A stretch of DNA of 64,000 bases from positions 1 through 64,000 of the forward strand of contig JAEEMP010000038.1 in assembly GCA_016283275.1 (NCBI GenBank), given 5' to 3'. Below, piece by piece: positions 41,213 to 62,106 of this stretch. Numbering within the stretch: the stretch's first letter is position 1; each line of letters opens with the position of its first letter. This DNA comes from Lachnospiraceae bacterium. GTDB taxonomy: Bacteria > Bacillota > Clostridia > Lachnospirales > Lachnospiraceae. Under the pieces are notes generated by a model. The model was not told the origin of the DNA, did no database searches, and worked only from the letters and a program-made list of their open reading frames with translations. The position numbers and the translations under genes are program-made.

Positions 41213-41300
41213 AATGCTGTGTTTTTTTGACACATATTTATCAATATGATAGAATTAAATATTGATTTATACACAAAAATCAAGGACAGGAAAAAGGGAA

Positions 41301-42476
41301 ATGGAGCGCATACAACATGTTTTTATAGTGGGGTCCAAAGGTATACCCGCAGCTTACGGAGGATATGAATCATTTGTGGACAGGCTTACGCTTTTTCAAA
41401 AGTCGGATGCCATAAAATATCACGTGGCCTGTGCGGTTGATTCAGTGCCTGAGGAAAAGACTTTTGAGTACAACGGTGCAAGATGCTTTAATGTTCTTCG
41501 CAAAAATATCGGCCCCGCGAAAGCAATTTTTTACGATGTTGATGCGATCAGGGAATGTATCGCATACATAAAAGCCAATAAAATAAAGGCGCCTATTGTA
41601 TATATACTTGCCTGTCGTATAGGACCGTTTATGCGCGGCATGGTTAAAAAGATCCATAAACTCGGTGGCAGGGTATATATAAATCCGGACGGCCATGAAT
41701 GGAAAAGAGCAAAGTGGGCAAAACCGGTCAGAAGATACTGGAAGGCTTCCGAAAAGATGATGGTAAAGCATGCTGATCTTATTATCTGCGACAGCATCAA
41801 TATCGAGAGATACATCAGGGAAGAATATCCTTCATACGATCCCAATACCACATTTATAGCATACGGTGCCGAGACATCTAAGTCGACGCTTTCCGATGAT
41901 GATGAGAAACTATTGAAATGGTATGAGGAAAAAGGGGTCAGGCCGCATGAATATTATCTTGTGGTAGGCAGATTCGTACCCGAGAATAATTACGAGACAA
42001 TGGTAAAAGAGTATATGAGATCGGATTCAAAGAAGGATTTTGTACTCGTGACCAATGTTGAAAAGAACAAATTTTATGAGGCGCTTCTTGAGAGCACTCA
42101 TTTTGACCAAGATAAACGTATCAAGTTTGTCGGAACGGTGTATGATACGGAACTTCTTAAAAAGATAAGGGAAAATGCTTACGGGTATTTTCACGGACAC
42201 GAAGTCGGAGGTACAAACCCGTCGCTTTTGGAAGCGCTCGGAAGCACGAAATTGAACCTTCTTTTAAATGTGGGGTTCAACAGGGAAGTTGGCGAAGAAG
42301 CTGCCCTTTATTGGGACAAGGAACAGGGTTCTCTTTCATCTCTTATCCATAAAGCCGATTCGCTTGAGGCCGGCGAGATAGAGGCGCTCGGCTTAAAGGC
42401 AAAGTCAAGGATAGAAACCGCCTACAGCTGGGATCACATTGTTGACAGATACGAAGAGGTATTTTTAAAACAATGA
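41301..42476 (+). CDS. Rhamnosyltransferase-like glycosyltransferase (Cps2T/DUF1972 type)
   Basis: A 391-aa GT-B enzyme with the DUF1972 N-terminal domain (VFIVGSKGIPAAYGGYESFV) that marks beta-1,4-rhamnosyltransferase-type proteins of capsule clusters. It also has YYLVVGRFVPENNYETMV and VGGTNPSLLEALG in the donor domain. Transfer of rhamnose is inferred from the family. The start ATG 41301 has AAAGGGAA immediately upstream; the track's TTG start at 41262 has no support. It overlaps the next gene by 4 bp. Confidence 0.88.
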   Translation: MERIQHVFIVGSKGIPAAYGGYESFVDRLTLFQKSDAIKYHVACAVDSVPEEKTFEYNGARCFNVLRKNIGPAKAIFYDVDAIRECIAYIKANKIKAPIVYILACRIGPFMRGMVKKIHKLGGRVYINPDGHEWKRAKWAKPVRRYWKASEKMMVKHADLIICDSINIERYIREEYPSYDPNTTFIAYGAETSKSTLSDDDEKLLKWYEEKGVRPHEYYLVVGRFVPENNYETMVKEYMRSDSKKDFVLVTNVEKNKFYEALLESTHFDQDKRIKFVGTVYDTELLKKIRENAYGYFHGHEVGGTNPSLLEALGSTKLNLLLNVGFNREVGEEAALYWDKEQGSLSSLIHKADSLEAGEIEALGLKAKSRIETAYSWDHIVDRYEEVFLKQ

Positions 42477-43705
42477 AAATTTTAATGGCAAATAAGTTTT
42501 TTTATATAAAGGGCGGAAGTGAGACTTATTATTTTGCATTAAAACGTCTGCTTGAGTCGAAAGGACACGAGGTTATCGATTTTTCCATGAAAGATGATAA
42601 AAATCTTGAGTCCGATTATTCCGATTATTTTGTGGAAGGCGTTGACTATAACGGGAAAATGAGTAAGTCGGCCCAACTTAAGGCTGCCCGCAATATCATT
42701 TATTCAAAAGAGGCCAAAAAGAAATTCGAAAGGCTTGTAAAGGATACAAGTCCGGATCTGGTGCATCTTAATATATTTCAGCATCAGTTGTCGCCTTCCA
42801 TACTTGATATATGTAAGAAATACGATCTTCCGACAGTTTATACCGCTCATGACCTTAAGATGCTGTGTCTTAATTATGTGATGATGACACACGGCGAGAT
42901 ATGCGAGAAGTGTAAAGGCGGAAAGTATATAAACTGCTTAAAGAATAAATGTGTAAAAGATTCTTCGGCGAAGAGTCTTATTAATGTTATCGAAGGCTAT
43001 TTTCATAAATGGCGGAAAAGCTATGATGCCATAGACGAGATAATAACTCCGAGTAATTTTTACAGAGATAAATTTATCAATTTTGGCGTAAACCCCGAAA
43101 GAGTTACGCATATTCCCAATTTTCTCGATAAAGAAAAGCCTTCGGTCAACAAGACAGATGACAGTGAGAAGTATTTCCTTTACTTTGGAAGATTGTCACG
43201 TGAAAAAGGAATAATGACGCTTGTAAAGGCTGTAAAGGATACGGACAGATCGTTATATATAGTCGGTTCGGGACCCTGCAGGGAAGAGATAGAGGATTTT
43301 ATAAAGGCTGATAAGGTCGATAACGTTAAACTCCTGGGCTTTAAGAGCGGGCAGGAGCTTACGGATATAGTGGGCAATGCCAAAGCGGTGATCCTTCCGT
43401 CGGAATGGTATGAAAACGGTCCGTATTCAGCCATAGAATCTCTTCAGCTTTCCAGGCCCATAATAGGTTCGGATATAGGAGGGATACCGGAACTTATAGA
43501 CGGAAACGGTTATTCTTTTGCCAAAGGGAATATAGATGAACTTAAGGATATATTGTTAAATTTCCCGGAGCCGGGAAGTGAAGAATATGCAATGCTTTGC
43601 AAAAGATCCGAAGAAATGTTTAACGAGCGTTACACTTCCGGATATCATTACGAAAAATTAATGAACATATATGACAAGGCTCTAAAAGCACATTGTTCAA
43701 AATAA
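42473..43705 (+). CDS. Glycosyltransferase family 4
   Basis: A 410-aa GT-B enzyme: KFFYIKGGSETYYFALK at the N-terminus, TVYTAHDLKMLC, a cysteine cluster CEKCKGGKYINCLKNKC (a likely metal-binding insertion seen in some capsule GT4 enzymes), FLYFGRLSREKGIMTL and GPYSAIESLQLSRPIIGSD. Overlaps the upstream gene by 4 bp, implying coupled translation. Confidence 0.9.
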   Translation: MKILMANKFFYIKGGSETYYFALKRLLESKGHEVIDFSMKDDKNLESDYSDYFVEGVDYNGKMSKSAQLKAARNIIYSKEAKKKFERLVKDTSPDLVHLNIFQHQLSPSILDICKKYDLPTVYTAHDLKMLCLNYVMMTHGEICEKCKGGKYINCLKNKCVKDSSAKSLINVIEGYFHKWRKSYDAIDEIITPSNFYRDKFINFGVNPERVTHIPNFLDKEKPSVNKTDDSEKYFLYFGRLSREKGIMTLVKAVKDTDRSLYIVGSGPCREEIEDFIKADKVDNVKLLGFKSGQELTDIVGNAKAVILPSEWYENGPYSAIESLQLSRPIIGSDIGGIPELIDGNGYSFAKGNIDELKDILLNFPEPGSEEYAMLCKRSEEMFNERYTSGYHYEKLMNIYDKALKAHCSK

Positions 43706-43740
43706 TAGAGAATGATCGCATATAACGATCGGAGACCTAA

Positions 43741-45573
43741 ATGAAAAAAAAGATTTTTACTATCACATCTTTCATATTGATATCGACATTACTGTGCGCA
43801 TGCGGTGATACAAAGGATTATTCCGCATGGATGCCGAAAGACGGCTATAAGCCGGTCTCGCATAATGATCAGGATACAGAAGGCAATTCTTTCATTACGA
43901 CCGCCGCCGGGTCGTTTTCCGCGAATGATCTTACGAAGGCTTTTTTGGACGAAGATGACTCTCTGGCGGATAAACTGTGGCAGACCCAGATCACCAACGA
44001 GATATATTCGGTTACTCAAAAAGAACTGAAAAGGAATTCAATGGTATATTACGTTTCATCAAGTGAGGGCGATGATGAAAATCTTGGCTTGTCACCGGAA
44101 GCGCCGAAAAGAACATTGACCGGATTTTCGGGCGTTTCAAATGTTACGATACTCTTAAAATGCGGTGATTCTTTTGAAATGGACCAGTCTTTTTCGGCGG
44201 GGAACAAGTGTGTTTACGCAACTTACGGAAGCGGTCCGAGGCCTGTGCTTGATTATTATAAGCCATTAGACGTGAAATTTACCGAAGAAGCCGAATATGC
44301 CCATGTTTGGAAGGCAGATCTCTCGAAGATATTCAAGGTCCGACATTCATCTGACGATGAGGAACAGAGTGTTCGGTTTTCGGATTGCAACATAGGGCAG
44401 CTTCTTATAGACGGTAAGGTTAACTGGAACAGACTGCTTCTAAATATAATCGGGAACGAAGCGCCGGATTACGCAAAGTATCTTGAAGAGGATGCATGTG
44501 AAAGTTGGGCTGTGGACTGGATGTCTTCAACGCTGTACCTTTATTCCAAAACGGATCCGAATAAGAAGAATATCAAATACGCAGATTTTACAAATGCTGT
44601 ATTTATGAGCGGGATCAAGAATACTGTTTTAAAAGGATGGGAAATAAAAGGTGCCGGTACGAGCGGCTGTACGATAGAAAACTGTACGGAGGTCACTATT
44701 GCTTCCTGCTATTTTCATGATATCGGAGGTACTCTGGCGGGCAGTCCGACCTCCAGGACCGGAAATGCCATTCAGGTTGTAGGCCAGGCAAAAGATGTTA
44801 TGGTCGAATACAATTTTGTGTCATGGATATTTAACGGTTGTTTTGTGGATCAGGTAGTTTCAACTTCGGAAGAAGACAGCAATCTTACAGTCAGGAACAA
44901 TATCGGAACGCGCTCCTATGTAGGCATTGATACGATAGGAGATGCTCTTGCCGAAAAAGGACATGTAAATATTGTCTATTCGGGTAATATTTTGAGTAAT
45001 ATGTGTGATATTACCGATCCCGATGAAAAACTTTATGCCGATGAGTTGGGCGGATTGTTACGTAACACTGTTCCCGAACCGGTTGAAGAGCCTGTGAAGG
45101 ATACAAAAAAGCCTAAGGACTCCAAAGATCCAAAGAATCCGGAAGACCTGTCGGTTTCCGGGACAGAAGAAAACGGGACAAGTGATAAACCGGATGTATA
45201 CTTATCATACAGAGGATCCGGCAATTACACAGGCATATCATGTATATGTAATTATTCGTCCAAGAATCCGGAAGGACTCGTAATGAATAATAATGTATGC
45301 TGGAATACGAGCCGATTATTAATCCTGTACACGAAGTCCGGTCCCAAGGCATATTTTAATGATAATCTTCTTTATTCGGAAGATGCACCGGGAGATGCGT
45401 GCATGTATCTGGTCGTTGATAAGGATATGAATATTGATTATTCAAATAAAAATCCTTTCCCCGGGAACAAAAATTATCTGGGTTATGATACAAGCGGAAA
45501 CGATATCGAGCCAAATGATGCGGTTGATATCCTGAAAAGTACGATCGGAGGCATTTCCGGATATGACAAATGA
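43741..45573 (+). CDS. Beta-helix lipoprotein in the exopolysaccharide operon
   Basis: A 610-aa surface lipoprotein. Signal peptide type II with lipobox LLCAC. The body has the look of a right-handed parallel beta-helix (CTIENCTEVTIASCYFHDIG, VMVEYNFVS, LTVRNNIG), the fold of pectate lyases and alginate epimerases, so a polysaccharide lyase, epimerase or binding role is plausible. A Pro/Lys/Asp-rich insert (PEPVEEPVKDTKKPKDSKDP) at about residues 444-470 interrupts the helix. No catalytic triad was identified. The operon location suggests action on the secreted polymer. Confidence 0.75.
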   Translation: MKKKIFTITSFILISTLLCACGDTKDYSAWMPKDGYKPVSHNDQDTEGNSFITTAAGSFSANDLTKAFLDEDDSLADKLWQTQITNEIYSVTQKELKRNSMVYYVSSSEGDDENLGLSPEAPKRTLTGFSGVSNVTILLKCGDSFEMDQSFSAGNKCVYATYGSGPRPVLDYYKPLDVKFTEEAEYAHVWKADLSKIFKVRHSSDDEEQSVRFSDCNIGQLLIDGKVNWNRLLLNIIGNEAPDYAKYLEEDACESWAVDWMSSTLYLYSKTDPNKKNIKYADFTNAVFMSGIKNTVLKGWEIKGAGTSGCTIENCTEVTIASCYFHDIGGTLAGSPTSRTGNAIQVVGQAKDVMVEYNFVSWIFNGCFVDQVVSTSEEDSNLTVRNNIGTRSYVGIDTIGDALAEKGHVNIVYSGNILSNMCDITDPDEKLYADELGGLLRNTVPEPVEEPVKDTKKPKDSKDPKNPEDLSVSGTEENGTSDKPDVYLSYRGSGNYTGISCICNYSSKNPEGLVMNNNVCWNTSRLLILYTKSGPKAYFNDNLLYSEDAPGDACMYLVVDKDMNIDYSNKNPFPGNKNYLGYDTSGNDIEPNDAVDILKSTIGGISGYDK

Positions 45574-46105
45574 CGGTGTTAACAAAAAACCGAATATCGT
45601 ATTGTTTGCCTCTGTTACATCGCTTTTGCTTCTTTTGCTGCTTGTTGGGATATTCTTTTTTCACAGAGCCGATAAAACGGGAACATATGCAGCAAAGGCG
45701 CATGAGACTTATGATGTATCGGGTATATCCGCCTCAAACATTCCGGATGATCTTTCCGCTATGGTCTTAAACAGCATGGATCCGTGGGAATCAGGGGATT
45801 TTGATGAATATACGGGAGAAAAGATAGATCACAGAAGGCGGCTGAGACTTAAAGAATACATAGTGGCAAGGAATGAAAAGTATATAGTAAAGCTTTCTGA
45901 AGGTTTTACATTTTCTGTATTTGAATATGATCCATCGGGTGCTTTTTTGAAATCGGATGATTATATCAATGGTGAGATCATTGCCTTAAGTCCTCAAACA
46001 GCTACATTCTGCGTGAGCATTAGAAGAGATGAGGACGAAAAAAAACTTTCGCCAGGACAATGGGGCAGATTTATACGTGAGTTGGATATAATGTTGTTGT
46101 ATTGA
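45563..46105 (+). CDS. Single-pass membrane protein, unknown
   Basis: A 180-aa protein with one N-terminal membrane helix (IVLFASVTSLLLLLLLVGIF) and a mixed extracellular domain of about 140 residues (QTATFCVSIRRDEDE). No family recognised. It overlaps the beta-helix lipoprotein gene by 11 bp and precedes the polymerase gene by 12 bp, so it is likely an accessory assembly factor. Confidence 0.75.
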   Translation: MTNDGVNKKPNIVLFASVTSLLLLLLLVGIFFFHRADKTGTYAAKAHETYDVSGISASNIPDDLSAMVLNSMDPWESGDFDEYTGEKIDHRRRLRLKEYIVARNEKYIVKLSEGFTFSVFEYDPSGAFLKSDDYINGEIIALSPQTATFCVSIRRDEDEKKLSPGQWGRFIRELDIMLLY

Positions 46106-46117
46106 TCGGAGAAAGAT

Positions 46118-47431
46118 TTGAAGGTAGCAGTAAATAAAAAGCATTTAATATTTTCAATTGCATACTTTTTTACGATGTTAACGCTTCTTCTTAACCAGAT
46201 AGAGGCGCTGCCGTTTGCTATCGTATTTCGAAAGACGAAATATGCCTACGTTGCGCTTGTACTTGTGCTTTGGATGACCGGCAACAGGATAAGACGCGGA
46301 TCTTGGCTTGCGATATGTAGCTGGAGTTTGTTTTTTATACATGCCGTGTTCTTTGGATATGTATTTAATACTACAGAGGGTGCGCATATAGCGGCAGAGA
46401 ATATTTCGGTTAATGTTACGCAGATGATATGGTATCTTTTGATGGTTCTTGCCACATACCTTTATGTGTCGCAAAACGGAATTTTTAAACTGTTTATTAC
46501 ACTCAGTTTTTATGTGACCGGGCTCCAACTGTTAATAGCTGCTGCATTACATCGACAGGATTTTGTGAATCCTGTCTGGGGACTTATCCAATCCTTTACG
46601 GCTGATATAAGATATAAAACGCAATTTGGATTTATCCATGCAGGATATCTTTCAAATGCAACATATCTTGTTGTCGTTCTTTCGTTGTTCTTTTTCGAAT
46701 TGTACAGACATGATCCGGATAAGCGTATCAGAAGTATCATGTGGATAAGTCTTATATTTTTAGATGTTCTGGCACTTGAGATGCTGATGTGTGCTGCCGA
46801 AAGGGCGGGTATCATATCAACAGTCATTCTTTTGTTCATATATTTTATATTTGTGTTTTTAAGAATAAGACTGGAAGCAAGAACAACCATTTTATTGATA
46901 ATGGCCGGCGTATTTTTCGTTTTTGTCATGGCTTCGGCGGGAGTGTTTACCCATATATGGGATAAGTCTAACAGAGCGCTGAATATTACGGTCAATTATC
47001 CTATTTTTTTGAAACTTGGTAATATCTGGACGGGGATGGGCTTTGTGGACAGTTCAGGTTTTCACGAAGATATTCTTGCTTTTGGTGACAGAACAAGCTC
47101 ATTGGATATGTATTATGTATATATCTTCTTTACCACAGGTATAATAGGTTGTATTTTAATAGGTTTAGGGCTTATGACCATACTCGTAAAACTGTTTTCG
47201 TTAAAGAAAACGGACCTTAATATAACTGCTATTGCATTATATGTCTCATGGCTTTTCTTTGCTTTTTGGCAATGTAATATGGTGACTTACAGATATCCGT
47301 CGCCGACTATTTTATATACAATTCTTTTGTGTGCCGTAAGCAGAGGATTCTGCAAGGATGAGAATACTTTGGGAATGGTAAAAGAGAAGGTTAAAACAGA
47401 TTATCCTGTTGAAGATATTTTGGTAGTATAA
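46118..47431 (+). CDS. Polysaccharide polymerase (Wzy/O-antigen ligase-like)
   Basis: A 437-aa membrane protein with 10-12 hydrophobic segments and one larger outer loop (about residues 295-340, GMGFVDSSGFHEDILAFGDRTSSLD), the layout of Wzy polymerases and O-antigen ligases. Sequence conservation in this group is low, so the assignment rests on topology and operon context. TTG start with GGAGAA 6 bp upstream. Confidence 0.75.
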   Translation: MKVAVNKKHLIFSIAYFFTMLTLLLNQIEALPFAIVFRKTKYAYVALVLVLWMTGNRIRRGSWLAICSWSLFFIHAVFFGYVFNTTEGAHIAAENISVNVTQMIWYLLMVLATYLYVSQNGIFKLFITLSFYVTGLQLLIAAALHRQDFVNPVWGLIQSFTADIRYKTQFGFIHAGYLSNATYLVVVLSLFFFELYRHDPDKRIRSIMWISLIFLDVLALEMLMCAAERAGIISTVILLFIYFIFVFLRIRLEARTTILLIMAGVFFVFVMASAGVFTHIWDKSNRALNITVNYPIFLKLGNIWTGMGFVDSSGFHEDILAFGDRTSSLDMYYVYIFFTTGIIGCILIGLGLMTILVKLFSLKKTDLNITAIALYVSWLFFAFWQCNMVTYRYPSPTILYTILLCAVSRGFCKDENTLGMVKEKVKTDYPVEDILVV

Positions 47432-47449
47432 TTATTTTTTAAGGGTGAG

Positions 47450-48553
47450 ATGAAAAACGCAGTTTTACAGATAATGAATTATGCCGCGGTTTATCGTGGT
47501 AATTTTATGGAATCATTGACGGCTTTGGACGAAAGGCTTAAAGAGAAAGATACTGTTACAATATATCTTTTTTGTAAAGACGCCGAGAAGGCCGCAAAGA
47601 TATGGATCGATGATATGGTCAGTGCAGGGGATATTGTACGGTTTTTGAGCGACGATCATAAAGCTGATGTGAGACTCATTAAAGACCTGATAAGGGAGTA
47701 CAATGTAAAACTGATACATACGCATTTTTTGACAATGCCGCAGTTTTTGTCGATATACTGCGCCAACAGACGATCAAATCTGCCGATAGTTATGCATATG
47801 CATAATCATTCTAAAAAAGCCGGTAACATAATTAAGAGAAAAATTTCTCATTTCATTTACCGGAAATGTTATATGGTTGCCTGCAGCAAGTCTGTGTATG
47901 ACAGTCTTATAAGGGATTACCCGAAGAATAAGAAATGCTATATTGACAACGGGGTCTATTTTGAAAGACTTGAAAAATTTGAAACATTGGATAAAAGGGA
48001 TTTCGGGGTGTCAGAGGATGAAAAACTTCTGCTTATCTTTGGCTTTGATTTTTACAGAAAAGGAGTAGATCTTGCCATAAAGGCTGTTTCCGATCTTCGA
48101 AAAGCAGGTTTAAAGTATTCTTTACTTGTATCACTTTCTACCAATTTCGAAGAAGCGGAGTCCAATGTAAAGAAAATATTGGGAGAAGTACCTGATTGGA
48201 TAAAGCTTATAAAAGCACGGAGTGATGTTGCATCGTTTTACAATGCGGTCGATATGTTTTTATCACCTTCGAGGGAGGAAGGTCTTCCGTATTCGGTCAT
48301 TGAAGCAGAGTATTCAAGGTGTAATGTTGTTCTGAGCAATATTTCCGCGCAGATACATCTTAAACTTAAGTATGGGGTCTGGTTTAAAAAGGATGATCCG
48401 GAAGATTTAAAAAACGCTATACTTAAGGCTGAGAAGTTAAGAGAAGAAAAACTTAATAATATGGATAGTGTAAAAGAATTTATGAGGGAGAATTATTCTC
48501 TTTCAAAATGGGTGGATGAAGTTGTTGAGTTATACGGAAGTATTTTATCATAA
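47450..48553 (+). CDS. Glycosyltransferase family 4
   Basis: A 367-aa GT-B enzyme. The N-terminal domain includes LIHTHFLTMPQFLSIYC and MVACSKSVYDSL. The donor domain has LLIFGFDFYRKGVDLAIKAV and FLSPSREEGLPYSVIEAEYS (EX7E-type). The nearby polymerase and chain-length genes place it in repeat-unit assembly. Confidence 0.9.
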   Translation: MKNAVLQIMNYAAVYRGNFMESLTALDERLKEKDTVTIYLFCKDAEKAAKIWIDDMVSAGDIVRFLSDDHKADVRLIKDLIREYNVKLIHTHFLTMPQFLSIYCANRRSNLPIVMHMHNHSKKAGNIIKRKISHFIYRKCYMVACSKSVYDSLIRDYPKNKKCYIDNGVYFERLEKFETLDKRDFGVSEDEKLLLIFGFDFYRKGVDLAIKAVSDLRKAGLKYSLLVSLSTNFEEAESNVKKILGEVPDWIKLIKARSDVASFYNAVDMFLSPSREEGLPYSVIEAEYSRCNVVLSNISAQIHLKLKYGVWFKKDDPEDLKNAILKAEKLREEKLNNMDSVKEFMRENYSLSKWVDEVVELYGSILS

Positions 48554-48589
48554 ATGTAAAGGAATAATTGAATTATCCTAGGAGGAGCC

Positions 48590-49918
48590 ATGGTTAAAGA
48601 AAAGAATGATTATATTTTGATAGACTTTACGGGGTTGATCAAAGCTATGTTTAATAGCTTGTGGTTTTTGATCGCAGTTGGAGTTTTGGGTGCTGTGCTG
48701 ACTTATGCCGTAGGCTATATATACACGAGTAATATCCAGTATACGCCCATGTACTCGTCTACCGTAAAATTATATTCAACTTCTGCGTATTCAAGTGCAT
48801 CAAGAACGGCATCAACTCAGATGAATGATTATTATGAAATAATGAGGACAAGAAGAGTGGCTAATCAGGTCATTTCCGATTTTAACCTCAATATGACATA
48901 CAGGGAATTTACCGGCCAGATAAGCAGATCGATGGTAACGGATACCAATATGATGTATATTACCGTAATGTTTCCAAATGCGGAGGTAGGCAAAGAAATT
49001 CTGGATGACCTGATAACAGTAACATCTGCTTATGCCCTTGAGATAATGGGAACGATTCCGGTAGAAGTATACGATGAAGCACAGGTTGCCGAAAGACCGT
49101 CAAATGTACCCGTATTGCCCACCAAAAAACTTCTTGTATTTGGTTTCGCAGGCAGTTTTCTTCTGGCATTCCTCATAGTTTTATTTTTGTTTTTATCCGA
49201 CAATAAGGTCAGAACCTCCGAAGATGTTAAAGCAGAATCCAAACTCGATGTTCTGTCTGCGGTTCTGGATAAGAAAAACAAGAAAAGTCCCGGGATAAAT
49301 AAAGCATCCATGCAGAGTCTGTACGGAGAACTTCGAATGATCAAGCCGGATGCGAAAACCATATGCTTCTACACATTCTCTGATGAAAATAAGGGAAGCG
49401 TTATCAAAGATTATCTGTCATTCCTTACGGAAGCAGGCAAGAAAGCCGTATACCTTGATACGGAGATCACCAATCCAAAGTGGGGCATAGAAGTATCGGA
49501 GGAAAGTAAAAACTCACTTAACGACTATCTTGAAGGCAAGGTTAATGATATTGCCAAGATAACTTCCAAAGATGATGGCGGAAATTATATTAAGCCGGTT
49601 CAGGCAAACAATACTATTGAACTGCTTACCGGCAATTCATTTGATACCCTTATCGATAAACTGAGGTCCGAGTATGATGTAATTCTCGTAGATACTGCCC
49701 CTTTTGCATATTCCGCTGAAGCCAAAGTAATAAGAGGAAAGTTTGATGTAACCATAGTCGTTGCTCAACTGGGCAAGACAAAACGTGAAGATTGTGCTTC
49801 TCTTTCAAACAGTTTTAAAGAGAACGAGCTTGACGGCGTTATCGTTACAAATGTAAAAGGAAATATAAAGAAGAAGGCATTTAAGCGTGAATACGGTCGT
49901 TTCATGGGGTTATATTAA
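48590..49918 (+). CDS. Chain-length determinant protein fused to a degenerate BY-kinase domain
   Basis: A 442-aa Wzz/CapAB-like protein controlling polymer length. TM1 (about 20-45) and TM2 (about 183-205, preceded by Pro-rich ERPSNVPVLPTKK) flank the extracytoplasmic domain. The C-terminal 185 residues have the fold pattern of a bacterial tyrosine kinase, but the Walker A GxxGxGK(S/T) is missing: the matching place reads YTFSDENKGSVIK. The Walker A' Asp is also altered (VYLDTEITNP), and there is no C-terminal tyrosine cluster. Walker B-like VILVDTAPF remains. It is probably a catalytically dead scaffold. No separate phosphatase gene was seen. Confidence 0.85.
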   Translation: MVKEKNDYILIDFTGLIKAMFNSLWFLIAVGVLGAVLTYAVGYIYTSNIQYTPMYSSTVKLYSTSAYSSASRTASTQMNDYYEIMRTRRVANQVISDFNLNMTYREFTGQISRSMVTDTNMMYITVMFPNAEVGKEILDDLITVTSAYALEIMGTIPVEVYDEAQVAERPSNVPVLPTKKLLVFGFAGSFLLAFLIVLFLFLSDNKVRTSEDVKAESKLDVLSAVLDKKNKKSPGINKASMQSLYGELRMIKPDAKTICFYTFSDENKGSVIKDYLSFLTEAGKKAVYLDTEITNPKWGIEVSEESKNSLNDYLEGKVNDIAKITSKDDGGNYIKPVQANNTIELLTGNSFDTLIDKLRSEYDVILVDTAPFAYSAEAKVIRGKFDVTIVVAQLGKTKREDCASLSNSFKENELDGVIVTNVKGNIKKKAFKREYGRFMGLY

Positions 49919-50685
49919 TGGAAGAATCAAGAAAGATTCCCAAAATAATACATTATTGCTGGTTTGGCAGGGGAGAGAAGCCTGGTAATATTAAGGCTTT
50001 TATCGCAGGCTGGAAGAATTTACTTGATGATTATGAATTTATCGAGTGGAATGAAGACAATTTTAAGATAGAAGAGGCTCCGATCTATGTACAGGAGGCA
50101 TACAGTGTCAGAAAATTCGCATTTGTAAGCGACTATGCAAGAATAAAAGGACTGTATGAAAAAGGCGGAGTATATCTTGATACGGACATTGAGATAGTAA
50201 GGCGGTTTGATGAACTTTTGCCCGGCAGGGATCTGGTTCTCGGATTTGAAAGCGACAGATCGCTTGAAACTGCATTTATGGCAGCTACACCGGAAAATGA
50301 ACTGATCGGTGGATTTCTTAAGACATATGAGAACAGAAAGTTTATAAACGAAGACGGCTCATACGATATGTCGGTGATCAATGAACATTTCAGTTCTTTT
50401 ATGAGTCAGAATACCGATATAGATCTTGATGATGAGAGGTTAAGAGAATTTGAAGAGGGAAAAATAGTTGTATATCCAAGAGACTATTTTGCTGCGTTTG
50501 ATATAAGTAACTGGCATATAAAACCCACTGAAAATACTTATACCATTCATCATATGAATGCCAGCTGGAGCTCAAAGAAAAAGAAACTTTATTTTTCGAC
50601 CATAAAGGCTCTGCAGCGGATTCTTGGAATAAAGGGTTACGATAAGCTTAAAGGGGCTTATGACAAATTAAAGAAAAAAGGCTAA
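49918..50685 (+). CDS. DXD-containing glycosyltransferase (GT32 type)
   Basis: A 255-aa sugar transferase of the capsular polysaccharide/GT32 group: KIIHYCWFGRGEKPGNIKAF at the N-terminus and GLYEKGGVYLDTDIEIV, where DTD is the metal and nucleotide-binding DXD. ATG overlaps the stop of the chain-length gene by one base. Confidence 0.9.
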   Translation: MEESRKIPKIIHYCWFGRGEKPGNIKAFIAGWKNLLDDYEFIEWNEDNFKIEEAPIYVQEAYSVRKFAFVSDYARIKGLYEKGGVYLDTDIEIVRRFDELLPGRDLVLGFESDRSLETAFMAATPENELIGGFLKTYENRKFINEDGSYDMSVINEHFSSFMSQNTDIDLDDERLREFEEGKIVVYPRDYFAAFDISNWHIKPTENTYTIHHMNASWSSKKKKLYFSTIKALQRILGIKGYDKLKGAYDKLKKKG

Positions 50686-50700
50686 ACTGATTATTTGATT

Positions 50701-52917
50701 ATGGGGAAAGATCAGATGGATGAAATCACAAGTCAGGTATTGACAGCGGTAAAGGCTGCAATTGCAAAAGAGAAGGCGGTATTTGAGGGCGATGTTGACT
50801 GGTATAAGTTAAGAGATTATCTGAAATTCGGCATACTCGACGGTATGTCATTTTCAGCTGTTTTGCCGAAGACTTTTAAAGATGATACAGAAGCCTCATT
50901 TTTGAACAACTGGAAACAATATTCTTTCCAGAGAGCAGTCAAGCAGATGGCGTCTGTGGGTTCTCTTTATAATGTACTAAAAAAGGGTGAAGAAGCAGGT
51001 GCAAAACCTGTAATATTTAAAGGAATAGTGCTGGCCTCTTTGTATCCGGAACCTTTTATGAGGTTTTCATCGGATGCCGATATATATGTGACACCTTCTG
51101 ACAGAAAAATAATGGAAGGTGTTTTTGATGAACTTGGATATAAGCTTATACCTGAAGTTTCCAAGGAACACGTTCCGCATTATGTGGGAACGGGTAATAA
51201 TGCCGCATTCCATATAGATCTTCATGACTGCCTCTGGGAGGACTATGAGGGAAAGCAGGCAAAACTTTTGGATTCCCTTAAATTGACCGATCCCGATACT
51301 TTTATTGAAGTTGAAGCCTGTGGGATAAAAGTCAGAACGCTTGGCATTACCGAACATCTGATTTTTCAGGTATTTCATGTAGTTAAGCATTTTGCGACCG
51401 AAGGGCTTCCTTTACGTTTTGTTACCGATCTTGCGCTTTATTCAAGGAAGTATGCTGACGAGATTGACTGGAAACGCTTTTGGAGCACTATGATGCTTTT
51501 GAAGTACGACGTGTTCTATAAATCGATCATGGAAGGGGCCAAAATATATCTTGGGATCGATGCTGATATTAAAGCACCCGAGAATATGAAACCCGGAAAT
51601 GTTGAGCTGCTTTTTGAAGAAATAGTGGCTTACGGACACAGAAAAAGCGATAACATTGAACATTATTTCGCGATCGGCTTTATATCCGGTTATTTTATGC
51701 GAAACAATACAAAGCAAAAAGGTCGTCTTTCTCAATTTCGTGCCAGATATTTTCCTTCAAGATCTGAACTTAAGGAAAAGTACGGATATGCCAAAAAGCA
51801 TGGCATATTACTCCCGATCGCATGGATACACAGATTGTTTGGCGCTTTAAGATTTTCTTTGATAAGTCGCAATAAAGGTATAGCGACAAAAGAAGTGCTT
51901 GAAAAGGCCAATGAAAGAGTAGGATTAATGAGCAAATACGGTCTGCTGGAAGAAAAGGGAGAAGAGAAGGCTTTTAACCCCGAAGACGTTTTGGTAAGTG
52001 TTGTAATCCCCACTTATGCAACTTCCGATTCGCTTAAAAGAGCGCTCGATTCCATACTCAGCCAGACACATACAAAACTCGATATTATCGTTGTGGACGA
52101 TAATCCTGCGGATTCCGATTACAGAAAAAAAGCCGAATCGGTGATGGATGCATATAAATATAATGATAATATCCGTTATATTAAAAATCCTCAAAATCTG
52201 GGCGGTTCCGGAGCACGAAATGTCGGTATTGAGGCGGCTAAAGGTGATTATATAGCTTTCCTCGACGATGATGATTATTATTATCCCACAAAAATAGAAA
52301 AGCAGCTCAATGTTTTTCTTAATACCGGGTTTTCGGAACTTGCACTTGTTTATTGTGATGTAGCTTATGAAGATAATTATGGCCGCATTACTTATATCGA
52401 GAGAAAGAGAATAAGAGGCAATTCGCTGTATAAGGCTTTAAAAGACGGCTGTATTGCCGCAACATCTCAGTGGCTTGTAAAAAAGAAAGCATTGCTCAGC
52501 GTGGGCTGTTTTACGATATTGCCGTGCAAACAGGATTCAACTGTTTTATTAAAACTATTGCGCGCAGGTTACGAAGTTGATTATGTGCCTGAGATATTAA
52601 GTATCTATCATGATGGTGTGGGAGAAGTCAGGATAAGTTTGGGATCCCGAAAAGTCGAAGGAGAGCTTACTTATGCCAACGCGTGTCGTGAATGTTACGG
52701 TGAGTTTACCAAACACCAAAGAAAACAGGTAGAATTCGGTATCGCCAAAAGGCTTTATGAAATATGGGCATATAAAGCGAACGGTGAAGGTGAATGTAAG
52801 AAATATTTATCGGTGATGAGAAAATCCGCACCGTTTAGAACATTTAAATTTCTTATAAGAACAAGACTGAGGTTGATTAAGAGGAAAGTGATCAAATGGT
52901 CAAAACAGCACTTATAA
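50701..52917 (+). CDS. NTP_transf_5-like nucleotidyltransferase fused to a GT2 glycosyltransferase
   Basis: A 738-aa two-domain protein. Residues 1-400 fit the uncharacterised nucleotidyltransferase family PF14907 (PVIFKGIVLASLYPE, FMRFSSDADIYV with the catalytic Asp pair, FHIDLHDCLWED). Residues about 435-700 form a GT-A family 2 enzyme (VSVVIPTYATSDSLKRALDS, IIVVDDNP, AFLDDDDYYYP). PF14907 proteins accompany lasso clusters; in the pseudomycoidin system the homologous protein adds sugar to the phosphorylated peptide. The gene could therefore serve either the exopolysaccharide or the RiPP 5 kb downstream. ATG 50716, behind GGGGAAAG, is an alternative start. Confidence 0.85.
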   Translation: MGKDQMDEITSQVLTAVKAAIAKEKAVFEGDVDWYKLRDYLKFGILDGMSFSAVLPKTFKDDTEASFLNNWKQYSFQRAVKQMASVGSLYNVLKKGEEAGAKPVIFKGIVLASLYPEPFMRFSSDADIYVTPSDRKIMEGVFDELGYKLIPEVSKEHVPHYVGTGNNAAFHIDLHDCLWEDYEGKQAKLLDSLKLTDPDTFIEVEACGIKVRTLGITEHLIFQVFHVVKHFATEGLPLRFVTDLALYSRKYADEIDWKRFWSTMMLLKYDVFYKSIMEGAKIYLGIDADIKAPENMKPGNVELLFEEIVAYGHRKSDNIEHYFAIGFISGYFMRNNTKQKGRLSQFRARYFPSRSELKEKYGYAKKHGILLPIAWIHRLFGALRFSLISRNKGIATKEVLEKANERVGLMSKYGLLEEKGEEKAFNPEDVLVSVVIPTYATSDSLKRALDSILSQTHTKLDIIVVDDNPADSDYRKKAESVMDAYKYNDNIRYIKNPQNLGGSGARNVGIEAAKGDYIAFLDDDDYYYPTKIEKQLNVFLNTGFSELALVYCDVAYEDNYGRITYIERKRIRGNSLYKALKDGCIAATSQWLVKKKALLSVGCFTILPCKQDSTVLLKLLRAGYEVDYVPEILSIYHDGVGEVRISLGSRKVEGELTYANACRECYGEFTKHQRKQVEFGIAKRLYEIWAYKANGEGECKKYLSVMRKSAPFRTFKFLIRTRLRLIKRKVIKWSKQHL

Positions 52918-53942
52918 CTATCTGGATGGGCGGAAACTTTCCCGAATGGTTTCCTTTGTGGGTAAGATCTGCTTCTTTAAATCCTGAATTTGATTATTAT
53001 GTCGTAACAGACAGAGAATGGACATGGGATATTTCCAATATTCATTATATTTCGATGAATTTAAAAGAGGCAGAGTCTGTTTTTGAAAAAGTTATCGGTA
53101 TGAAGATCTGTTTGAAGACACCGTATAAACTTTGTGATTATAAACCCGTCTGGTGGGCAGTAATAGGCGAAGCCATTAATGATTATGATTACTGGGGACA
53201 TATAGATACCGATGTAATATACGGCAATTTAAGCAAGTTTTTAACCGAGGATTTGCTGAGCGATCATACAAAGATATTCGAACAGGGAAATCTTACAATT
53301 TACAAAAATACCGAAGAAATAAGGAATATCTATAAAAAGAGTGCCCTTAAGGATAATATGGCTTATTCTTACAAAAAGGCATTTCGTACAAATTGGGCCT
53401 GTTATTTTGATGAATATATGGGTATGAATCTCTTGGGAGATAAGTATTTTAAGGTGTTAAGAGACCAGCTTACCGAGAATTATATTCAGGATTTCTCGTG
53501 GCAGCATTTAAATTTTACATCTTATATTACCAAAGAGGATTTCATTTTCAAATGGGATAACGGCCATCTGTTCAGGTATATCGTGGATGGGGAAGGCAGG
53601 CTGAAAACGGATGAGACCGGTAAGCTTATCGTGAAAGAGTTTTTACTCTGCCATATACAGAAGCGCCGGATGGAAATAGTTTCGGAGCTTAAAGATGATT
53701 TTGCGGATATTACAAATATAAGCGGATTCTGGATAATTCCGAATAAGTTTACCGTAAAAGAACCCGAGGGCGCTTTATATACCGAAAAAGACAAGGTCGA
53801 ATATGAGGAGCTTATCAGGGTAAAAGATAAGCAGCGTCAGATCGACAATATGAAGCGAAACGGGATATTCTCATATATTCCCCACAGGTTAAGGACTAAA
53901 AAGATAGTTGGTTATATAAGAAAAGAAAAAGGCTTTTTCTAG
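52896..53942 (+). CDS. Glycosyltransferase-like protein (DUF6625 type)
   Basis: A 348-aa protein with a GT-A-like N-terminal half (LITIWMGGNFPEWFPLWVRS, DYDYWGHIDTDVIYGNL with a DXD-type DTD) and a basic C-terminal tail. It resembles the DUF6625 family found in capsule clusters; donor and acceptor unknown. It overlaps the upstream fusion gene by 22 bp with the SD GAGGAAAG inside that gene. Confidence 0.8.
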   Translation: MVKTALITIWMGGNFPEWFPLWVRSASLNPEFDYYVVTDREWTWDISNIHYISMNLKEAESVFEKVIGMKICLKTPYKLCDYKPVWWAVIGEAINDYDYWGHIDTDVIYGNLSKFLTEDLLSDHTKIFEQGNLTIYKNTEEIRNIYKKSALKDNMAYSYKKAFRTNWACYFDEYMGMNLLGDKYFKVLRDQLTENYIQDFSWQHLNFTSYITKEDFIFKWDNGHLFRYIVDGEGRLKTDETGKLIVKEFLLCHIQKRRMEIVSELKDDFADITNISGFWIIPNKFTVKEPEGALYTEKDKVEYEELIRVKDKQRQIDNMKRNGIFSYIPHRLRTKKIVGYIRKEKGFF

Positions 53943-53960
53943 AAGTTGGGGAGGGTAGAT

Positions 53961-54959
53961 ATGGATGATATTAAGAATGCGATCATAAGTGTTATAGTAC
54001 CGGTATACAATACCGAAAAGCATTTAAATAATTGCCTGGAAAGCATTATCGGTCAGACTTATAAAAACCTTGAGATAATCATTGTGGATGACGGTTCGAC
54101 CGACGGATCGCTCGATCTCTTAAAAGAGTGGGAAAAAAAGGATGAACGTATAAAGCTATTTCATAAGGAGAATGGGGGAGCTGCTTCCGCCAGAAATATC
54201 GCGCTTGAACATGCAACAGGTGAATATATTTCGTTTGTGGATTCGGATGATATCATTACGGAAAATATGTTTGAGTACATGCTGGAAACACTTGAAAAGT
54301 ATGATGCTGACATCTGTCAGTGCGGTATGGAAGAAATCCGTGAAAGCGGGTCCAAAATGGTATTATCGGGCAATGAAGAGTTTGTGGCCACGGATAAAAG
54401 GTTCTGGGAACTGGTAAGTAACGGAGATATGCCTTCTGTTTGTATATGGACTAAGTTATATAAAAGCGCATTATGGGAAAAGATCCGCTTTCCCGAAGGG
54501 CATGTTTTTGAGGATGAAGCCATTATCCTTCAAATGTTAAAGAATAAACCGAGGATCGTTATCGTTCCGATGCCGTTTTATAATTATCTGCGTATGAATT
54601 CCACAGTCATGCGTAATCTTAAAAGTGAAGACGAATTGTATAAGAGCAGTGTACTTTTCGAAAGAATGGATTATCTCTTCGAGCAAAAATACGCAAAATG
54701 TGTCCGTAGATCTTTTGCATACGGAATAAGGTTATTGTGCAAGTGTTATAAAGATAAAGCATTCATGAGAAGTGCATCCGGTTCGGATGATTTTTATAAA
54801 CTTAAAGCTGCCTGGGTCAGCAAAGCCAAAGAAGCATCCAAACTTGTGGACGATCCCCAATTTAAATTTATGATGTTTTTGTTAAGGGTTAATTGGCCTT
54901 TGTATGTATTTATTCAGCAAATATTCAGTCCTATACACGACAGAAAGGCCGGAAAATAA
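53961..54959 (+). CDS. Glycosyltransferase family 2
   Basis: A 332-aa GT-A enzyme with ISVIVPVYNTEKHLNNCLES, IIIVDDGSTDGSLDLL, NGGAASARNIALEHATGEYI and FVDSDDIIT (DXD-type). A helical C-terminal tail may contact the membrane. The start ATG 53961 has GGGGAGGG 5 bp upstream. It is the last clear glycosyltransferase of the operon. Confidence 0.9.
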   Translation: MDDIKNAIISVIVPVYNTEKHLNNCLESIIGQTYKNLEIIIVDDGSTDGSLDLLKEWEKKDERIKLFHKENGGAASARNIALEHATGEYISFVDSDDIITENMFEYMLETLEKYDADICQCGMEEIRESGSKMVLSGNEEFVATDKRFWELVSNGDMPSVCIWTKLYKSALWEKIRFPEGHVFEDEAIILQMLKNKPRIVIVPMPFYNYLRMNSTVMRNLKSEDELYKSSVLFERMDYLFEQKYAKCVRRSFAYGIRLLCKCYKDKAFMRSASGSDDFYKLKAAWVSKAKEASKLVDDPQFKFMMFLLRVNWPLYVFIQQIFSPIHDRKAGK

Positions 54960-54987
54960 CAAATAACAGGGATGAAGAGGTAATCAG

Positions 54988-56115
54988 GTGTCTGAGAAGA
55001 ATAGTATGTGGGCTCATTATATTGTCGATCTTAAAAAATTTAAGGCAAACTGTGATGAAGTAACAGTTCATTTTAACAATGAATGGAATAATAACGTAAT
55101 ATACGGATACTCCGTAAAGACGAACAGAGACAGTAAATTGTTAAAGTATGCTGTCGAAAAACTGGGCTGGTATGCCGAGATGGTAAGTCCCGATGAATAT
55201 GATTATTGTAAATCGGAAAATATCTCTGCGGGCAGAATGATCTTGAACGGTCCGTGTAAAGAATCAATGATATCGGAAGGCAATTATCGGGTAAAATATA
55301 TTAATCTTGATAATTTAGATGAAGTTTCAGTTTTCTGCAGCAAAGAAAAGGCAGATTTAAATGTCGGTTTAAGAATTAATTTTGATCTGGAAAAATTATG
55401 TCCGGGCGAGACTACTGCGGGCGATGAAGTGAGCAGGTTCGGTATAGATGCAGAGAGTGAGGATATAAAAAAAGCTGCCAAAATGCTTAAAGATGCAGGG
55501 TATGATAAGTTTGGCTTACATCTTCACACAAGCACCAAGACCAGAAGCTTAAAAGTTTTTGAATCGCTGGCAAAAGAGGCGTTAAAGCTTAAAGAAGAAC
55601 TGAATATCGATTTTTCTTTTATAGATATGGGAGGAGGTTTCTTTGGTGGACAGGTGGTAAGCGGAAAGCCTTCAATGCGAGATTATGCTGATACGATCTG
55701 CACTGTGTTAAGAAACGGATTTGATCCTGCCAAAACTACGCTAATTTTGGAGCCCGGTGCTTCGGTATTGGCTACCTGTGTATCGTATAAAGCCCAAGTA
55801 ATAAATGTAAGGAAGATAAGAGGGATAAATGTTGCCACTATCAACGGCACTTTGCTTCATTTAAACCCTTTTATGTCAAAAAGAAATCAGCCTTATGTGA
55901 TCTGTTCGGATGTCGGTTCACGAAAAAATGCAGAAAAGCAGATCATCTGCGGAGCAACGTGTATGGAAAATGACAGACTGGCTGTTGCCATAGATTCTCC
56001 GGAACTTGAAAAAGGCGATGAGCTCCTTTTTGGTAATGTCGGAGCTTATACAATGACATTTAATGCATATTTTATTCTTGATCCTCCAAAGACCGTTTAT
56101 ATAGGAGACGAATAA
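54988..56115 (+). CDS. PLP-dependent group IV decarboxylase (ornithine/diaminopimelate type)
   Basis: A 375-aa alanine-racemase-fold decarboxylase. PLP lysine is Lys44 in YGYSVKTN, the phosphate site is DMGGGFFGG, and the second-subunit catalytic cysteine is Cys325 in ICGATCMENDRL. It is shorter than LysA (about 415 aa) and lacks its typical ends, so the substrate may be a carboxy-amino acid other than meso-DAP. It sits 28 bp after the GT2 gene and 9 bp before the B2 peptidase gene, so it is coexpressed with both. A role in a tailored or conjugated amine building block is possible. Confidence 0.85.
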   Translation: MSEKNSMWAHYIVDLKKFKANCDEVTVHFNNEWNNNVIYGYSVKTNRDSKLLKYAVEKLGWYAEMVSPDEYDYCKSENISAGRMILNGPCKESMISEGNYRVKYINLDNLDEVSVFCSKEKADLNVGLRINFDLEKLCPGETTAGDEVSRFGIDAESEDIKKAAKMLKDAGYDKFGLHLHTSTKTRSLKVFESLAKEALKLKEELNIDFSFIDMGGGFFGGQVVSGKPSMRDYADTICTVLRNGFDPAKTTLILEPGASVLATCVSYKAQVINVRKIRGINVATINGTLLHLNPFMSKRNQPYVICSDVGSRKNAEKQIICGATCMENDRLAVAIDSPELEKGDELLFGNVGAYTMTFNAYFILDPPKTVYIGDE

Positions 56116-56124
56116 GGCAAAATC

Positions 56125-56583
56125 ATGGTATCTATTATCAGTTTTATCAAGCATAATGACAATAAAATGATGACTGTCCAAGCATGGGCATATGCTGCCT
56201 GGTACAGGTTTTTGATAAGATTCAGGTCCCGTAAACATCTTGAGAAACATTGGGGTGTTTTAGGCGAGGAAACCGGTCAGACTCTTACGCTTGAACAGTA
56301 CAAATATGCACGGCTTGTGTCACGACAGGTTAACCGTATCGCCAATCATACACCGTGGGAAAGTAAGTGTCTGGTTCGTGCACTTGCTGCCCGACGCTTT
56401 TTGTGTAAGAAAAAAATATCCAATACTCTTTATCTGGGTGTGGGGAAAGATGAGACAGGAAAGATGGTGGCCCATGCATGGATCCGTGCGGGCTCTGCGT
56501 ACGTAACAGGCGGAGACGGCTCTGAGTATGCGACCGTAGCAATGTTTAAGAACGAATTTAAGGATGAAAGTCAAAGCGATTAA
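56125..56583 (+). CDS. Lasso peptide B2-type leader peptidase (transglutaminase-like)
   Basis: A 152-aa protein of the transglutaminase-like B2 family that removes the leader from lasso precursors. The catalytic Cys82 is in WESKCLVRALAARRFL and His117 in VAHAWIRAG; Asp131 in GGDGSEYAT is the probable third residue. The N-terminal 70 residues are a basic helical part typical of B2. No B1 domain is fused to it. It is the last gene of the long polysaccharide operon, 9 bp after the decarboxylase gene, and 130 bp before the precursor gene. Confidence 0.9.
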   Translation: MVSIISFIKHNDNKMMTVQAWAYAAWYRFLIRFRSRKHLEKHWGVLGEETGQTLTLEQYKYARLVSRQVNRIANHTPWESKCLVRALAARRFLCKKKISNTLYLGVGKDETGKMVAHAWIRAGSAYVTGGDGSEYATVAMFKNEFKDESQSD

Positions 56584-56712: not shown

Positions 56713-56916
56713 ATGAAGAAGTTTAACAATGCTGAAGTCGTAGAACTTAGTCTTGACAAGACAGAAAATGGTCTTTGGGATAGCGATATCGAGACAAATG
56801 TATGCGGTGGAGGTTGGAATCCCTTTTATTTATTCACAGAGAATGATAGTAAAAAGCCTGAACAGCCTACAGATCAGAAGCCTGTAACACCTGCTGATGA
56901 GACTTCACTTTCATAA
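56713..56916 (+). CDS. Lasso-like precursor peptide 1
   Basis: A 67-aa precursor. The leader MKKFNNAEVVELSLDKTENG aligns without gaps to the peptides at 16.5 and 62.0 kb. If cut before Gly20, Glu27 is at ring position 8, so a Gly1-Glu8 macrolactam is possible. The conserved Thr17 would then be at -3 instead of the usual -2. The core would be 48 residues, far longer than known lasso cores of about 15-26. It contains CGGGWNPFY, a Pro/Lys/Thr-rich tail and a C-terminal Ser (TSLS), the residue type phosphorylated by lasso kinases. The start ATG 56713 has AAGGAG upstream; the track's earlier start does not. It is followed by a terminator. Confidence 0.82.
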   Translation: MKKFNNAEVVELSLDKTENGLWDSDIETNVCGGGWNPFYLFTENDSKKPEQPTDQKPVTPADETSLS

Positions 56917-56931
56917 TAATGAATAGTAACG

Positions 56932-56970
56932 TCGGCCAGATCATATTTGATTTGGCCGATTTTTTTTTTT
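56932..56970 (+). terminator. Rho-independent terminator between precursor 1 and cyclase 1
   Basis: Stem TCGGCCAGATC/GATTTGGCCGA (one G-T pair) followed by T11. This would make precursor transcript more abundant than enzyme transcript. Confidence 0.9.
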
Positions 56971-58971: not shown

Positions 58972-59853
58972 ATGTATCAGTATCGTGCGTATGGTATAGG
59001 AATACATTCCGATTTTAAACTTTATAATTTTGATGAGACAAAGACAGATGCGGATGTATATATCCGCAAGATCCACTCGGGACTTGACAGAGCGGAATGT
59101 GCGCAAAAGAAAAAGTGGATAGAATATAATGACGATAATGCGTGGGTTATGAGTACTTTCGCCCAGTTTTTTATCAGGGAAGGAAAATATATTGATGTCT
59201 TTGTGGAAAAAGAGGCCACTTACATTGAAATTGCTGCTTTTATATGTGGCTGGTGCATGGCTTTTTTATTTACACAAAGGGGTTATTCCGCTATTCACTG
59301 TGCCGCTCTTGAGTTTGGCGATGGCTGTGTTCTTGTTTCGGGCACAAGCGGTGCGGGCAAAACGACGACATCTCTGGAGCTCATTAAGCGTGGGCACAGG
59401 TTTTTGGCAGATGATATAGCCATGATCCGCCCTGAAGATGATTTTCTGGTCCGGCCGGCTTTCCCTATGCAGAAAATATGCCGGGATGTTGCAGAAGCGA
59501 CACAGAATAAAGACTTACTTTATATAGATGCCGATAAGGATAAATTTGCAAAAATGAATTATGAAGACTTTTGTGACATACCTAAACCGCTAAAGGGAAT
59601 GGTAATGTTAAATAAGAGTTATGACGGCGATCTGGAGGTCACGGAGTACAAAGGGTTTGATAAATATTTAAAAGTATTCAGTTCGCTGTTTATTGGGAAA
59701 TTGTTTATAGATAACGGTGTAGATAAAAATGAACAGTACCGGATGTTAAAGCTGGCTGAGAAGATTCCTTATCTTTCGATAACCAGGCCGCTTAACAGTG
59801 ATACGCTTAATGAAGTTTGTGATGCCATAGAAGATTTTTACGGTCGGGAGTAG
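58972..59853 (+). CDS. HprK-like peptide kinase (lasso tailoring)
   Basis: A 293-aa P-loop kinase related to HPr kinase. Motifs: AIHCAALEF, Walker A SGTSGAGKTTT (residues 123-133), HRFLADDIAMI with the family DD. In lasso clusters such kinases phosphorylate the C-terminal serine of the precursor (paeninodin type). Precursor 1 ends in Ser, precursor 2 in Gly, so precursor 1 is the likely substrate. Cyclase 2 starts 5 bp after the stop. Confidence 0.88.
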   Translation: MYQYRAYGIGIHSDFKLYNFDETKTDADVYIRKIHSGLDRAECAQKKKWIEYNDDNAWVMSTFAQFFIREGKYIDVFVEKEATYIEIAAFICGWCMAFLFTQRGYSAIHCAALEFGDGCVLVSGTSGAGKTTTSLELIKRGHRFLADDIAMIRPEDDFLVRPAFPMQKICRDVAEATQNKDLLYIDADKDKFAKMNYEDFCDIPKPLKGMVMLNKSYDGDLEVTEYKGFDKYLKVFSSLFIGKLFIDNGVDKNEQYRMLKLAEKIPYLSITRPLNSDTLNEVCDAIEDFYGRE

Positions 59854-61857: not shown

Positions 61858-62052
61858 TCAACCAGGCATGTTAATGTGCATTCCTTCTTCGTCTCCGCTG
61901 GGATAAGGAATACCATCTTGGATGGTGCTCTTATCGATTATTCTTGCATCCTTGTCTGCCCACTGAGCATCAAGACCTGTAGGATTGGGATCAGCCTGTG
62001 CGGTAGCCTTAAGACTAAGCTCGATAACTTCTGCATTGACAAACTTCTTCAT
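61858..62052 (-). CDS. Lasso-like precursor peptide 2 (minus strand)
   Basis: A 64-aa precursor, leader MKKFVNAEVIELSLKATAQA, nearly the same as precursor 1. After Thr17 the core could start at Ala20 with Asp28 as residue 9, or at Gly26 (after Thr25) with Asp33 as residue 8; either would allow a ring. The remaining sequence is acidic (DGIPYPSGDEEG) and ends in MPG, without the C-terminal Ser of precursor 1. The start ATG 62052 has AAGGAGG 8 bp upstream. Divergent from the B1-ABC genes and convergent with cyclase 2. Confidence 0.82.
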   Translation of the reverse strand: MKKFVNAEVIELSLKATAQADPNPTGLDAQWADKDARIIDKSTIQDGIPYPSGDEEGMHINMPG

Positions 62053-62077
62053 TTTAAATTCCTCCTTATAATGTACC

Positions 62078-62106
62078 TTTATAGTAATTGTTATTATTTT
62101 TGTCAC
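62078..62106 (-). promoter_or_regulatory. Promoter of precursor 2
   Basis: On the minus strand GTGACA and TATAAA separated by 17 bp, 26 bp before the ATG. Confidence 0.65.

Follow-up and report, generated by a model that had tools for sequence, protein, structure and literature searches.

An open reading frame of 740 codons in the window (the whole stretch of 64,000 nucleotides that was analysed, from a gut Lachnospiraceae bacterium) is, judging by its sequence, a genuine fusion of a PF14907-type nucleotidyltransferase (NTase) domain with a GT2 glycosyltransferase domain, both of them intact. We propose, at a rough probability of 0.45, that it encodes a two-domain tailoring enzyme that glycosylates a phosphopeptide, as part of a phospho-RiPP pathway residing within a polysaccharide island. 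The basis of this proposal is the domain make-up, the intact motifs, the gene order, the conserved linkage and the co-segregation with the lasso B2 gene.

The fused open reading frame and its surroundings

The frame spans positions 50695-52917 of the plus strand, its 740 codons being counted from the first TTG. Since the best ribosome-binding sequence (ggggaaag) lies 5' of the ATG at 50716, translation probably starts there rather than at 50701. Pfam places the PF14907 domain (NTP_transf_5) at residues 35-286 and the PF00535 domain at residues 435-546, with scores of 117.9 bits (curated cut-off, 31.2) and 109 bits (cut-off, 23.3), respectively; together with a DxD-type motif in the second half, these scores assign the two halves to the NTase and GT2 families. 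Stand-alone NTase homologs stop at about residue 420, and stand-alone GT2 homologs commence at about residue 429, in fusion numbering, so that the join appears to be end-to-start, through some 10 linker residues. From residue 412 to the GT2 core there is no in-frame ATG or GTG, and the sole candidate, a TTG at residue 433, lacks a Shine-Dalgarno sequence. An AlphaFold model of the entire product has two domains (pLDDT 83.5), with its weakest, flexible stretch at residues 422-429. The Pfam matches, the homolog boundaries and the in-frame linker therefore bear out the initial annotation, which had described a PF14907-type domain fused to a GT2 domain.

In alignments, the NTase half keeps K109-G110, Y117, R123, D127-x-D129, H177, H228, H232 and D245, and has D175 as the third carboxylate, where E is usual. 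Modelled alone with AF2 (pTM 0.89), it is predicted to adopt a polymerase-beta-type fold, which agrees, together with the KG...R...DxD...(E/D)xH positions, with its assignment as a nucleotidyltransferase. The structures closest to this model are ANT(2'')-Ia and MenT1 (Z 11.3); LnuA was also matched, and there is a weak likeness to FKRP, a ribitol-phosphate transferase (Z ~7). A sequence search of the PDB with this half gave no relevant match. In the GT2 half, the motifs VVDDN, NLGGSGARN, FLDDDD and CKQDS are all present, the latter two being conserved across homologs, and its structural neighbours are K4CP, TarP, RmlT and WrtF; it resembles glycosyltransferases of capsule and teichoic-acid synthesis.

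The fusion belongs to a run of genes of about 15 kb (41262-56583), all on the plus strand and separated by no more than 36 bp, which closes with the lasso B2 gene (Table 1). The order within this run is GT4, GT4, beta-helix protein, small ORF, Wzy-like, GT4, Wzz-like, Gly_transf_sug, fusion, DUF6625, GT2, PLP decarboxylase and B2; on the 3' side of B2 follow A1, a hairpin, C1, the HprK-like kinase, C2, A2 in the opposite orientation, PqqD and an ABC transporter. As the co-directional run reaches from the fusion to B2, the two genes are predicted to share an operon, as originally suggested, and the kinase and the Ser-ended precursor said to lie nearby are indeed found.

Table 1. Features of the fusion locus, in window coordinates, and fusions in related loci, in coordinates prefixed by locus.
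Feature	Coordinates	Strand	Evidence or remark
Polysaccharide backbone: three GT4, beta-helix protein, Wzy-like, Wzz-like	41262..49918	+	syntenic in seven relatives
Gly_transf_sug/Caps_synth glycosyltransferase, immediately 5' of fusion	49918..50685	+	71% / 69% identity in L086 / L087
PF14907 NTase half of fusion	50716..51975	+	residues 8-427 of the 740-codon frame; Pfam E 7e-34, alignments, AF2 model
GT2 half of fusion	51976..52917	+	residues 428-740; Pfam E 3e-31, stand-alone homologs, structural neighbours
DUF6625 protein	52896..53942	+	22-bp overlap with 3' end of fusion
Second, separate GT2 glycosyltransferase	53946..54959	+	domain match
PLP-dependent decarboxylase, LysA-like	54988..56115	+	between polysaccharide genes and B2; profile matches
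Lasso leader peptidase B2	56125..56583	+	NF033537, 81.9 bits (cut-off 33)
Precursor A1	56713..56916	+	MKKFNNAEVVELSLDKTENG...DETSLS, Ser-ended; Shine-Dalgarno aaaggag; leader family
Terminator-like hairpin with T10, just 3' of A1	56931..56960	+	consensus scan
Lasso-cyclase-like asparagine synthetase C1	56919..58925	+	profile matches
HprK-like kinase	58972..59853	+	PF07475 above cut-off; NCBIfam HprK models below cut-off
Second lasso-cyclase-like asparagine synthetase C2	59859..61778	+	profile matches
Precursor-like A2	61858..62106	-	internal start MKKFVNAEVIELSLKATAQA...HINMPG; leader pattern as in A1
PqqD/RRE protein B1	62314..62580	+	NF033536, 81.8 bits (cut-off 80)
MsbA-like ABC transporter	62581..64000	+	extends past window end; 67-68% identity in L085-L087
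HprK-like kinase / PF14907 NTase fusions, both orders	L039:8921-10993; L120:8718-10799; L121:8747-10834; L122:8629-10719	+; -; +; +	
Lasso-cyclase-like AsnB-GT2 fusions, two diverged species	L115:8040-11138; L123:9312-12290	-; -	adjoin precursors with near-identical cores

The gene set of a paeninodin-like, kinase-bearing lasso cluster is thus present, namely, a precursor, split B1 and B2 genes, a cyclase, a kinase and an ABC transporter, although the cyclase-like AsnB proteins C1 and C2 reach 151 bits with NF033535, below its lasso cut-off of 525; the fusion shares with PsmN-type enzymes its location with kinase and lasso genes. The W/YxxP leader motif does not occur in the window precursors, which have FNNAEV and FVNAEV instead; many relatives have WxxP. 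A1 and A2 were judged not to be of a single precursor type, since their C-termini differ. By its sequence and position, the hairpin, a strong one, is probably an attenuator between A1 and C1, and because it lies downstream of the annotated start of C1, this start is likely too early, the true one being located further 3'. Beyond the window, at about 76.0-77.0 kb of the same contig, a second HprK-like kinase homolog (L032:12017-12958, minus strand; 33% identity to the window kinase) adjoins a histidine kinase and a response regulator.

Related loci

The claim that PF14907-type proteins occur with kinases in lasso clusters was evaluated in a phylum sample of 398 Bacillota genomes, 46 of which have PF14907 matches (32 above the cut-off), and is supported: 16 of the 20 best loci have an HprK-like kinase at a distance of no more than 10 kb, and tight same-strand adjacency of NTase and B2 genes was observed 11 times against 0.66 expected, by within-locus permutation over 80 pooled NTases. 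The same procedure gave 13 adjacencies with the ABC transporter, against 3.4 expected. Of the 80 NTase genes, 54 have at least one of the kinase, PqqD, B2 and cyclase genes within 10 kb; this pool is a non-random sample, because it includes loci picked by similarity to the window NTase and others picked for long frames, and the HMMs for RiPP genes were themselves derived from the loci under study. PF14907 is also matched by the NTases that accompany B2, kinase and cyclase genes in other Bacillota, and ten out of 25 precursors are Ser-ended. Adjacency of NTase and GT2 genes equals the locus background (8 observed, 7.95 expected), and the idea that RiPP NTases generally have a GT2 partner was therefore rejected as a rule. 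Two PF14907 frames of 949 and 906 residues (L152:7349-10198, minus strand, and L153:8785-11505, plus strand) carry some 500 extra residues, N- or C-terminal, which match no Pfam family, so that neither has a second Pfam domain.

Full-length homologs of the GT2 half, with 45-55% identity, were found in seven species (G790-G796), where they share the contig with the best NTase homolog (35-42%) but are encoded, in all seven cases, by a separate gene. The polysaccharide backbone is syntenic throughout these species. The lasso genes form one block with the NTase and GT2 genes in G793-G795, and in G796 this block is distributed over two contigs, its gene order unchanged. In G790-G792, the NTase (40-42% identity to the window half) and GT2 (52-55%) homologs lie in the polysaccharide locus, from which kinase, PqqD, B2 and cyclase genes are absent; these genomes have lasso B2 on other contigs, and G791 additionally retains a kinase and a Ser-ended precursor elsewhere, so these NTases could act in trans. 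In an ML tree, the three NTases from polysaccharide-only loci group together as a derived subclade nested within lasso-linked NTases; the window NTase joins this group through a weak innermost node (83/41), within a strong nine-row clade (100/98), and most members of its own clade are lasso-linked.

A scan of genome contigs with a close four-row NTase alignment gave 24 related NTase loci, none of which has the two domains in one frame, and no second NTase-GT2 fusion was found in 397 family genomes, 398 phylum genomes, 18 genus genomes and plasmids. As regards the concern that the fusion might occur mainly in polysaccharide clusters without RiPP genes, the only fusion found sits with RiPP genes, and its halves, as separate genes, accompany lasso genes in four of the seven relatives. 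Within the GTDB genus of the window, the NTase and GT2 homologs, the GT4 backbone and lasso B2 (above cut-off) occur in the same four out of 18 species, the remaining 14 having none of them (Fisher 3e-4, which is optimistic because of shared ancestry, as the species are not phylogenetically independent; several of the genomes are incomplete). One named member of this genus, Lachnospiraceae bacterium YSD2013, was matched through the loci.

Other fusions were encountered in these genomes. According to Pfam, G096 encodes a kinase-NTase fusion, and G791, G792 and G799 encode fusions with the reverse domain order, which occupy a separate branch of the ML tree; the fusions of G791 and G792 are each adjoined by a precursor-like peptide that has the same leader. 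In G793 and G797, a cyclase-like AsnB is fused to a GT2 domain, with 46% identity between the two proteins over 991 positions. That peptide-tailoring enzymes and sugar enzymes have been joined independently is, in qualitative terms, the strongest indirect argument for coupled pathways. In L120 and L121 a precursor-like peptide adjoins the kinase/NTase fusion, with B2 and cyclase genes absent nearby. Large Transglut_core proteins also recur next to the cyclase gene (L115:11359-13830, minus strand; L117:13870-15819, plus strand; L123:12294-15368, minus strand; L033:8738-11203, minus strand).

Proposed function and its alternatives

The model for our proposal is PsmN, an annotated nucleotidyltransferase encoded beside a kinase in the pseudomycoidin lasso cluster (PMC9266682, a review of Zyubko et al. 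2019), which is needed for the phosphorylated C-terminal Ser to receive one or two hexoses, the sugar being added either by PsmN or by a host enzyme. In the window, the HprK-like kinase would phosphorylate a precursor Ser, probably the C-terminal one of A1; the PF14907 domain, by analogy with PsmN, would next load hexose or hexose-phosphate onto that Ser phosphate; and the fused GT2 domain would then add one or more further sugars, drawing on the NDP-sugar pool of the polysaccharide genes. The peptide substrate, the order of these steps, the identity of the sugar and the shared product of both domains are what we infer. If the proposal is true, it would help to account for RiPP clusters that reside in capsule or exopolysaccharide loci.

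The strength of the proposal differs between the two halves, and the original claim that the fusion tailors the lasso-like peptide stands accordingly in part. The NTase half is probably a RiPP-type tailoring enzyme, as its family is associated with HprK-like kinases, PqqD and lasso genes, its clade is mostly lasso-linked, and it co-segregates with lasso B2 in four of the 18 genus members. That the GT2 half acts on the same peptide is plausible, but this half forms part of the polysaccharide section of the island, its adjacency to NTases is at background, and the G790-G792 loci lack kinase, PqqD, B2 and cyclase genes. The singleton nature of the fusion, the position of its GT2 half within the polysaccharide block, and the C1 and C2 scores below the NCBIfam lasso cut-off also count against the proposal. 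More far-reaching, and in our view quite improbable, is the idea that the island makes a conjugate of a lasso-type phosphopeptide, a phosphate-linked sugar and a growing glycan or exopolysaccharide, which the NTase-GT2 fusion would join; in that event, the cyclase-GT2 and kinase-NTase fusions of relatives would be further signs of the same coupling.

The main rival is that the fusion serves the polysaccharide pathway, with the GT2 half adding a repeat-unit sugar, the NTase half placing a phosphate-linked group, either sugar-phosphate or nucleotide-derived, on the same glycan, and the lasso genes as mere neighbours. The closest homologs, those of G790-G792, have such a setting; the fused GT2 is located among capsule-type glycosyltransferases, resembling K4CP, TarP and RmlT; and the NTase fold has its weak likeness to FKRP. 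We nonetheless regard this rival as less likely than our proposal: the NTases of polysaccharide-only loci branch, as a derived subclade, from within lasso-linked ones and could act in trans in genomes that keep lasso genes elsewhere, and two genomes (G390 and G208) have the polysaccharide backbone without these NTase and GT2 homologs.

A slightly less probable alternative is that the two domains have no shared product, the NTase tailoring the peptide and the GT2 building the polysaccharide, after a chance loss of the stop codon between co-expressed neighbours. Loci rich in GT2 genes, where NTase-GT2 adjacency is at background, a minimal end-to-start linker, and a single fusion throughout the family, phylum and genus searches, all agree with an accident of this kind. 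However, the same GT2 group travels with the NTase in 7/7 nearest relatives, the motifs are kept in both halves, the GT2 has lost its separate start, and other fusions, of kinase with NTase and of cyclase with GT2, have arisen independently. As for an assembly or sequencing artefact that made one gene out of two neighbours, the source genome is fragmented (130 contigs, 86% complete) and the fusion is a singleton known from that one assembly; yet the linker is in frame without a stop, there is no plausible GT2 start and the domain boundaries are clean, which makes such an artefact highly improbable.

Comparison with described systems

PsmN and the fusion are alike in that a nucleotidyltransferase adjoins a kinase in a lasso cluster, but the description of PsmN, on which the comparison is based, mentions no GT domain (PMC9266682). 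Linear polyphosphorylated peptide (LPP) clusters and paeninodin-like clusters inside capsular loci were reported in Bacillota in 2026 (PMC13381572). As in the window, an NTP transferase, an HprK-like kinase, an RRE and an MsbA-like transporter come together in LPP clusters within capsular polysaccharide loci, but there the leader is removed by a SipW-like signal peptidase, not by B2, and the NTP transferase is a separate gene (PMC13381572). Inspection of portions of the window contig brought no archaeal-type (SipW-like) signal peptidase to light. LppN showed no activity when expressed heterologously; the speculation of the authors is that it needs a partner encoded outside the core cluster (PMC13381572, 2026). 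The natural glycosyltransferase fusion supplies, in one polypeptide, a candidate partner for the PF14907 enzymes associated with phosphorylated lasso peptides and with LPPs, and it can be expressed together with its own peptide and kinase.

Within the same bacterial family, the excerpted text of a 2020 report places nucleotidyltransferase, HPr kinase, GT2 and EpsH genes beside the lasso genes of rumen Butyrivibrio and Lachnospira (Lachnospiraceae; PMC7533575). The kinds of genes are those of the window, but that excerpt lists them as co-occurring only and reports no fusion (PMC7533575). The link between NTase, kinase and lasso genes is thus already published, as co-occurrence of lasso, kinase, nucleotidyltransferase and glycosyltransferase genes in rumen Lachnospiraceae (2020, PMC7533575). 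The NTase-GT2 fusion, as well as the kinase-NTase and cyclase-GT2 fusions of relatives, appear to be new; no description of an NTase-GT2 fusion was found in the literature searched, where the Pfam name as query gave no match.

A similar arrangement is found in plasmid pNP243 of Butyrivibrio fibrisolvens D1 (NZ_CP146964.1), with B2, kinase, cyclase-like, NTase and PqqD genes followed by a second NTase, which lies 23 bp 5' of a GT2 gene. Here, unlike in the window, NTase and GT2 are separate genes, and the GT2 is not an ortholog of the fused one (33% identity over 131 residues). On this plasmid of 243 kb, the lasso genes are accompanied by two PF14907 NTases, two PqqD genes and an S24/S26 peptidase, so that lasso-type and possibly also LPP-type modules lie next to each other.
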